DNA from: Pirellulaceae bacterium | GTDB taxonomy: Bacteria > Planctomycetota > Planctomycetia > Pirellulales > Pirellulaceae | Reading direction: 5' to 3' | NCBI GenBank assembly: GCA_030681235.1 | Contig: JAUXWY010000128.1 | Coordinates: 1-57,335, forward strand | DNA: 57,335 bases | Part shown: one piece after another, positions 17,620 to 18,999 of the stretch | Layout of the letters: the number at the start of each line of letters is the position of its first letter | Position numbering within the stretch: the first letter of the stretch is position 1 | Position numbers and translations under genes: made by a program | The notes under the pieces: model-generated | Database searches by the model: none | What the model was told of the DNA's origin: nothing | Seen by the model: only the letters and a program-made list of their open reading frames with translations

Positions 17620-17656
17620 AAAAAACCCGCCGCACCGAAAGGTCCGGTGGGCGGGG
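17620..17656 (-). terminator. Intrinsic terminator of the HMA selenoprotein gene
   Basis: Read on the minus strand, a GC-rich hairpin (CCCGCC-CACCG pairing with CGGTG-CGGCGGG, one bulged base) is followed by six T residues. It begins about 37 nt after the TAA at 17693-17695. This supports translation and transcription running through the UGA at 17876 to that TAA. Confidence 0.85.
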
Positions 17657-17692: not shown

Positions 17693-18094
17693 TTATTCGG
17701 CCGGGGTATAGCCAGCCAAGTGGGTGTTGGTCTCAGCGAACTCGACCAACTTGGCCTTGTAATCGACGTCCGGGGAAACTCGGAAACTGCATTTCCGGGC
17801 CTGAATGTCGGTGTTGATATCGGTGGTGGTTTCAATCTTCTCCAGATCGCGTCGGACCGACGCGGCACAGCCGCCTCAGGTCATGTTTGGAACGTTGAGA
17901 GACACCATGACATACTTTGAGGTATCAGCAGCTGGTTGGCTGGTTGACTTTCCGTCCTCATTTGGGACGGTCGCGGACGCAGTTGCGGCTTTATCGCCAG
18001 TTTTCTTTTCAATCGGGGGTATCTTGCCGCTTCCGCACCCAATCAGGGCGGAAACCAGGCTGACGCAAATCAGCCAATGAATCGCTTGTCGCAT
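17693..18094 (-). CDS. Probable selenoprotein: lipoprotein with Sec-containing HMA (heavy-metal-associated) domain
   Basis: From ATG 18094 (AAAGGA ribosome binding site about 10 nt upstream) to TAA 17693 the frame is open except for one UGA at 17876-17878 (codon 73). Residues 1-20 form a lipoprotein signal with lipobox LIGC (Cys20). A polar linker (about 21-58) follows, and then a complete HMA-like fold, Y-V-M-V-S-L-N-V-P-N-M-T-U-G-G-C-A-A-S-V-R-R-D-L-E-K-I (60-87), ending near G-Y-T-P-A-E (133). HMA domains bind metal through M-T/x-C-x-x-C; here the first Cys is UGA and the second is Cys76. A SECIS-like hairpin follows the UGA and a terminator follows the TAA. If the UGA were a true stop, the product would be a 72-residue lipoprotein with a half-finished domain. 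A sequencing error or TGC-to-TGA mutation is the alternative, but neither explains the hairpin. No selA, selB, selC or selD lies in this window. Confidence 0.85.
17848..17878 (-). promoter_or_regulatory. Putative bacterial SECIS element
   Basis: On the mRNA strand the UGA (17878-17876) is followed by a hairpin: CGCGUCG (17864-17858), loop GUC (17857-17855), CGACGCG (17854-17848). The stem is 7 bp and perfect. The apical loop starts with G 19 nt after the UGA, inside the 16-37 nt spacing usual for bacterial SECIS elements, which need a G among the first loop bases. A competing hairpin GCGGC-UGU-GCCGC (17873-17861) overlaps its left arm. Confidence 0.7.
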
Positions 18095-18339
18095 AGGACA
18101 TTTCCTTTCGTACACACTAATTTGAAACATTCACCACAGACAGCCACAGCCCGTGCCGGTCAGCTCCAGCTTTCCCCGACAATTCACAGCGACGGCCGCC
18201 TACGCCCTTATGGTCGAATATTGGCGGCCATTCGTCAAGTCAAAATGGAATTTCTCCCATAATTCAGCAAGTTTTTAGTCCGAACCCGGCGTCCAGTGCC
18301 AAGAAGCGGGGTAAATCACGTCATTTCGGTGTTACAGTA

Positions 18340-18427
18340 GCGGAGTTCGCCAAAACCTTCGGCGTTACCGCAACGAACTCCGCCATGACTTTCGGCTCGT
18401 CCGTAGCGAAAGTCGCCAAGACTTTCG
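18340..18427. repeat. Small hairpin repeats (TAGCGGA family), copies 2 and 3
   Basis: Two hairpins lie in the 422-base gap before guaD. GCGGAGTTCG (18340-18349) pairs with CGAACTCCGC (18374-18383), and CGAAAGTC (18407-18414) pairs with GACTTTCG (18420-18427). Sequence around both shares the pattern GTAGCGnAnnTCGCCAAnACnTTCGGCG, related to the hairpin at 17499-17526. These look like a REP-like intergenic family. Nothing coding is visible in the gap. Confidence 0.6.
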
Positions 18428-18516
18428 GCGTTTGAGTTTGGTATGCTGGGCAAAAGGCCGGTCGAGCGGCCAGCCTGCCACAGACATTTTTCAATCTCGT
18501 TGTCAGAAAGTCCCCC

Positions 18517-18999
18517 GTGTCGCTGGACGAAACTGCTCAAGAATACTTGCGGGAAGCCATTCGGCTGTCCATCGAAAACGTGGAGTCCGGCCGCGGGGGT
18601 CCGTTTGGGGCGGTGGTGGTTTACCAAGGCGAAATCATTGGACGAGGAACCAATCTGGTGACCGCAACGAACGACCCGACGGCCCACGCCGAGGTGGTCG
18701 CGATTCGAAGCGCCTGCCAACATCGCCGCAGCTTTTCATTGGAACATTGTGAGATCTACACCAGCTGCGAGCCCTGTCCATTGTGCCTCGCAGCGATCTA
18801 TTGGTCGCGAATGGCAAAGATTGTTTTTGCGGCCACCTGTGACGATGCAGCGGCAGCCGGGTTTGATGATCGCGTGTTCTATGAAGAATTGGCCAAGCCG
18901 ATCAGCGCTCGACAAATCCCGGCGACACACGCGCTCCGCGACGAAGCGGTACTGGCCTTTGACACTTGGCGTCAAAACACCCACCGAATTGAATACTAA
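18517..18999 (+). CDS. guaD: Guanine deaminase (CDA-fold, GuaD-like)
   Basis: A zinc-dependent deaminase of 160 residues. H57-A-E59 supplies the zinc His and the proton-shuttling Glu, and CEPCPLC (84-90) supplies the zinc cysteines C87 and C90. GGPFGAVVV near 27-35, D-P-T-A-H-A-E-V, the A-G-F-D-D segment and the C-terminal T-H-R-I-E-Y ending resemble the short B. subtilis-type guanine deaminase, which makes xanthine from guanine. This is preferred over tRNA adenosine deaminase because of the length and tail. It uses a GTG start at 18517, with only a weak AGAAAG upstream. It may act in purine salvage together with the nucleoside transporter at 23523. Confidence 0.88.
   Translation: MSLDETAQEYLREAIRLSIENVESGRGGPFGAVVVYQGEIIGRGTNLVTATNDPTAHAEVVAIRSACQHRRSFSLEHCEIYTSCEPCPLCLAAIYWSRMAKIVFAATCDDAAAAGFDDRVFYEELAKPISARQIPATHALRDEAVLAFDTWRQNTHRIEY

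Follow-up and report, generated by a model that had tools for sequence, protein, structure and literature searches.

A probable selenocysteine-containing HMA lipoprotein encoded in a Pirellulaceae genome and in related planctomycetes

Selenocysteine (Sec) is already known in HMA-type proteins. Cation-transporting ATPases with UxxC and mercuric transport proteins are listed as selenoproteins in the available text of a 2026 review (PMC13188914), of a further review (PMC9312934) and of the GOS selenoproteome survey (PMC2398784). A UxxU metal-binding protein is listed in the available text of the two reviews, and the table of the GOS survey holds two sequences of a Sec form of MerP. Selenoproteins of planctomycetes are described in the accessible part of PMC4807772. 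Within the portions available, planctomycetes are not mentioned in the two reviews or the GOS survey, lipoproteins are not mentioned in the two reviews and YceI is not mentioned in the 2026 review, and the four-domain and YceI-fused forms described below are absent from the lists of all three. A search by title and abstract, with subscription papers and supplements outside its scope, returned no publication on a Sec-HMA lipoprotein family. Because Sec in HMA-type proteins has been described, we regard the protein reported here as a variant within a known kind, and the novelty of the lipoprotein family is provisional.

We analyzed a 57,335-nt stretch of a Pirellulaceae assembly (GCA_030681235.1, contig JAUXWY010000128.1; hereafter the window), which contains a gene for a small HMA protein with an in-frame TGA in its metal-binding motif. 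MerP (TIGR02052) resembles the product in being a single HMA domain exported from the cytoplasm, and it supplies both the best single-HMA structure and the top fold match. However, the window protein scores 25.2 bits against a TIGR02052 cutoff of 92.55 and is lipoprotein-like with a long linker. It also differs in mer-system membership, judged by MerA alone: MerA exceeds its cutoff in 0 of 100 family genomes, leaving mercury resistance through MerA unsupported, and weaker MerA matches (E 1e-100 or better) occur in 64 of the 100, including the source genome at 393 bits vs 454. The UxxU metal-binding (seleno)protein (NF041115) is likewise a small HMA-type metal-binding protein with Sec in its motif, but the window protein reaches 22.4 bits against its cutoff of 95 and has one Sec in UxxC where the other has two in UxxU. 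The MerT/CopZ fusion-like heavy metal transport selenoprotein (NF045683) has, by its name, a CopZ-like HMA part; it is a fusion to a MerT transporter and not a lipoprotein, and the window protein scores 19.1 bits against a cutoff of 375. The UxxC cation ATPases of the three sources above share a Sec in the UxxC of a metal-transport protein and are P-type ATPases, whereas the window protein is a small lipoprotein whose relatives include YceI fusions and a four-domain form.

The gene lies on the minus strand at 17693..18094, running from an ATG at 18094..18092 to a TAA at 17695..17693, and encodes 133 residues, one of them Sec, when the TGA at 17876..17878 is read as selenocysteine. The N-terminus of the protein read in this way, MRQAIHWLICVSLVSALIGC, carries by eye a lipoprotein-type signal, a putative signal peptide (18035..18094) that ends in a lipobox-like L-I-G-C with its Cys codon at 18037..18035. 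The product is thus likely to be exported and lipid-anchored. Sixty sense codons separate the TGA from the TAA. The TGA occupies the first Cys of the HMA CxxC motif, which reads V-P-N-M-T-U-G-G-C, and the codon of the second metal-site Cys is at 17867..17869. With U replaced by C, the protein (P0002) matches Pfam HMA (PF00403) over residues 78-129 (17744..17899) at 35 bits, above the gathering score of 24.8; the match spans the TGA position, and an AlphaFold2 model and a fold match to MerP 1osd agree with it. A terminator-like hairpin follows the gene (17620..17655, minus strand), with a GC-rich stem that folds as 13 bp with one bulge (about 17655-17626) and then six T's; 9 of 200 shuffles fold equally well, and the hairpin (about 17655-17620) is not among the calls of a consensus terminator scan. 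An earlier note on this DNA had proposed that the frame stays open for 60 codons past a UGA on the first Cys of M-T-C-x-x-C, with the second Cys intact, and that these codons supply the missing part of an HMA domain. All of this is borne out by the frame, the motif M-T-U-G-G-C and the Pfam match across the TGA. The rho-independent terminator that it placed past the stop was recovered by folding and missed by the consensus scan.

When 100 family genomes were searched with the window protein, 33 matched with an E-value no higher than 0.001. In 27 of the 100 there is an HMA protein whose same codon is TGA, as U-x-x-C in 26 genomes and as U-G-F-S-U in one (G016). Three genomes (G029, G053, G097) have a Cys form alone, with TGT or TGC, and another (G095) has a Cys copy alongside its Sec copy. 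Three further matched genomes (G001, G008, G010) show no HMA motif; two of the weak matches, counted among the 27 (G014, G078), read as Sec-HMA lipoproteins. Planctomycetes bacterium K23_9 (CP036526, locus L049) is a further carrier of the gene, with the motif V-P-N-M-H-U-G-G-C. Among the matches listed by a profile search across 396 genomes of the order, 36 are strong (at least 76 bits) and come from 27 genomes; the next one down scores 46 bits, and each profile search scored at most 14 candidates per genome. Among these 36 listed matches, 33 contain one TGA, in every case at the same codon, three contain none and carry TGT or TGC, and none has TAA or TAG. A search of 392 genomes of the phylum (E 1e-13) yielded, among the matches listed, one strong match besides the source genome, from outside the order (G747) and with TGA. 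An extra copy in G076 (L146, 528-797, minus strand, contig C275, 37 bits) has a TAG before the domain and Arg where the second Cys would be, and by its sequence is a decayed copy.

Past the UGA, comparison of the window gene with three close relatives gave dS of 0.63-0.71 and dN of 0.07-0.12, a within-genus dN/dS of about 0.11-0.18; for the one pair run in both alternative frames, dN roughly matches or exceeds dS. By these substitution rates the frame past the UGA is under purifying selection. Since 27 of 100 family genomes share the TGA and the sequence beyond it appears to be under such selection, the site goes beyond chance, and the 0/36 count of TAA or TAG together with the low dN/dS leads us to reject a pseudogene. 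The earlier note had pointed to a stop of the TAA or TAG type in close relatives, or loss of the downstream frame, as evidence against Sec, and to Cys orthologues as worth finding; the frame is kept, TAG occurs in the decayed G076 copy and in none of the strong matches, and Cys forms exist in the three genomes above and in the second copy of G095. A 47-domain tree has poor resolution, but its four Cys rows require three changes, and the Cys form of G029 groups with 21 Sec forms with support of 99/98.

A SECIS-like stem-loop is located at 17848..17864 (minus strand), with a 7-bp stem (CGCGUCG/CGACGCG), a GUC loop and the loop G 19 nt past the UGA. Our alignment (A4) comprised 23 of 28 Sec sites; the five excluded sites, from G076 and G012, have the stem 5 nt further downstream with the GUC loop kept. 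The five core pairs are standard pairs in 115 of 115 cells, both-sided (compensatory) changes occur in four of the five, and the covariation score was reached by 0 of 500 shuffles. Further pair types, one of five covariation measures, were unremarkable (41 of 500 shuffles as high). Slid versions of the stem pair in 25-57% of cells of the same 23 sequences. At 15 later sites, which are independent of the derivation of the stem, 64 of 75 cells pair and 10 sites are perfect, compared to 23-49 of 75 cells for slid controls. The exact stem is not formed at five of the 15, all from one genus, where a stem of 5-6 bp closing on 6-7 nt is possible; for one of them (L087) the scan picked another 5-bp stem.

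Stems of 7 bp or more are found at 33 of 43 distinct Sec sites vs 13.6% of synonymous recodings, and at the window site 4% of synonymous recodings do as well; a stem of at least 5 bp readily arises by chance (57.5% of synonymous recodings). A G is among the first two loop bases at 40 of the 43 sites. At the SECIS position the three Cys orthologues lack any stem as long as 5 bp, and a generic Cys HMA (L099) has one of 5 bp. Folded alone, the 51-nt window segment prefers a different hairpin (MFE -18.0) and the SECIS pairs are 8-19% probable; once the bases closest to the UGA are omitted, the SECIS stem becomes the fold optimum. Single-sequence folding is weak as proof of a SECIS, with z-scores between -2.17 and -0.05 for nine U-form segments. 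Within the window nothing reached an Rfam gathering score, and at five loci Rfam gave four sub-threshold matches, none of them a SECIS.

The source genome (G000) is a draft of 6.4 Mb in 521 contigs and is 91.85% complete. It encodes SelA (551 bits, cutoff 267.9), SelB (331 bits, cutoff 242.25) and SelD (375 bits, cutoff 125). The selB and selA genes are on separate contigs (G000:C287:4980-7010, L002, and G000:C320:14461-15819, L001). The selC gene was not found in the draft: the best Rfam match, at 46.9 bits against a gathering score of 47, is a tRNA-Ser, a pattern search found none, and a same-genus tRNA-Sec used as query matched just short pieces at chance level. A tRNA-Sec is present in all six relatives examined, two congeners among them; in each it scores above the gathering score and is called tRNA-SeC by ARAGORN. 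The missing selC probably reflects gaps in an incomplete draft. The four-gene check suggested in the earlier note thus recovered selA, selB and selD and found no selC in the draft, with selC present in relatives. Among family genomes, selA is over cutoff in 26 of 27 with a Sec form vs 41 of 73 others (Fisher p 4.9e-5, a guide value, because genomes within a family are not statistically independent); the Sec-form genome that has no selA match (G065) is 86% complete. UGA also serves as an ordinary stop, ending 10 of 22 large non-overlapping ORFs in the window, which rules out genome-wide reassignment. The SelD gene of the same genome (L142, contig C337, 5416-6348, minus strand) contains an in-frame TGA (...SYASCAGUASKLGP...) and looks like a second Sec candidate.

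The domain recurs in other architectures. In G076, four HMA domains are joined in one 450-residue lipoprotein, and every domain has a TGA and a stem-loop to itself. The coordinates of the four-Sec-HMA lipoprotein are L035 1702-2853 and L118 9034-10383, with stem-loops 5 nt downstream relative to that of the window. YceI-HMA fusions occur in three genomes (G047, G049, G390), and YceI + Sec-HMA loci are at L123 9518-10441, L124 4494-5387 and L139 9364-10272, all on the minus strand. The G016 lipoprotein (L046, from 1690, plus strand) has two in-frame TGA codons in M-H-U-G-F-S-U, followed by a 7-bp stem, and may be a variant with two Sec in which Ser replaces the second Cys. HMA domains also stand behind other N-terminal regions (L121, L125, L126, L140), of which that of L126 has a weak LTXXQ match below cutoff. 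By eye, the N-termini of the variant architectures look like export signals.

The AlphaFold2 model of the domain, built from a 31-row alignment, has a mean pLDDT of 96.5, and oxidised MerP (1osd, E 3.7e-5) ranks first among its fold matches. By sequence, the best single-HMA solved chain is MerP 1afi (46.8 bits); multi-domain copper ATPases have a higher summed score, at about 26 bits per domain at most in the four alignments listed. The way the comparison was built partly accounts for the conservation seen among the Sec domains at U, P, M and the second Cys. Of 43 Sec domains, 31 share a third Cys (RKCSF, 17789..17791) and 38 share a His (TNTH, 17720..17722) in the loop that follows the second helix. 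This loop adjoins the metal site in HMA proteins, and the conserved His is possibly an extra metal ligand. Likening it to His61 of cyanobacterial Atx1 found no support, as the available part of PMC4235346 concerns another His61.

Conservation of the UGA and of the frame beyond it, covariation in the stem-loop and the machinery genes together indicate that the window gene almost certainly encodes a selenoprotein, and they support the probable selenoprotein of the earlier note. If the UGA were instead a true stop, the gene would specify a truncated lipoprotein and the downstream frame would be a relic. We give this reading next to no weight: the selC not found in the source assembly would fit it, and the G076 copy with TAG and without its second Cys shows that copies can decay, but the downstream frame is conserved across genera with a low within-genus dN/dS, no strong match has TAA or TAG, and the stem-loop covaries. 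Readthrough might also decode the UGA as a residue different from Sec, either by near-cognate decoding or as Cys on the Sec tRNA under scarce selenium. The Cys forms at the UGA position speak for such readthrough, but the near-cognate version would need neither a covarying SECIS stem nor an association with selA, and we consider readthrough of this kind highly improbable.

A serious rival concerns the function of the Sec and not its presence, namely that U-x-x-C is a redox centre on an HMA fold, acting as a selenol/disulfide exchanger or a peroxide-reactive site. A U-x-x-C outside the cytoplasmic membrane would readily oxidise, and the YceI partner domain gives no pointer to metal export. In the available text of the GOS survey, moreover, 33 of 51 selenoprotein families are thiol-oxidoreductase homologues or Trx-like, and UxxC is a common redox motif (PMC2398784). 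The fold, however, is HMA and not thioredoxin. M-x-U-x-x-C also fits the HMA metal loop, and the His is kept in the loop that flanks this metal site in HMA proteins. We consider a redox centre unlikely on this balance, and binding of soft metals a reasonably probable role.

The best joint explanation, to which we attach fair probability, is a selenoprotein that is exported, lipid-anchored and binds soft metals through a U-x-x-C HMA domain. The stem-loop about 19 nt past the UGA would recruit SelB with Sec-tRNA, and the UGA would consequently be decoded as selenocysteine. The exported lipid-anchored product would display its U-x-x-C HMA domain outside the cytoplasmic membrane, where soft metal ions could be bound by the selenolate, the thiolate and perhaps the nearby His. 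Cu(I) is an example of such an ion and is, from general knowledge, presumably the likeliest target. The bound metal may then be buffered or passed on by the lipoprotein.

More broadly, the chances seem to us even that Pirellulales-type planctomycetes have an undescribed extracytoplasmic Sec-HMA family, in which selenium would serve as a metal ligand rather than a redox catalyst and the proteins as a cell-surface soft-metal buffer. The family would include the four-Sec lipoprotein with its own SECIS for each Sec, the YceI fusions and the two-Sec U-G-F-S-U form. Sec is usually explained by redox catalysis. If such a family exists, Sec kept at an extracytoplasmic metal ligand position would test whether selenium is also chosen for metal binding, and the lipoprotein with four UGA codons would offer a natural case in which to study repeated insertion of Sec from a single bacterial mRNA. 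Ordinary gene callers stop at UGA, so Sec-HMA genes may be shortened in public annotation.

The gene neighbourhood was compared by clustering the ORFs of 41 stretches (the window and 40 loci, some of them short) among themselves. The widest neighbour cluster covers 9 of the 41, and two clusters, covering 8 and 6, consist of ORFs overlapping the Sec-HMA gene itself. This ORF clustering, made without family assignment, yielded no partner gene and no pointer to a metal. On the plus strand of the window, three diverged tandem repeat copies with 33-nt spacing (18324-18432) lie upstream of a cytidine-deaminase-like gene (18517-18999).
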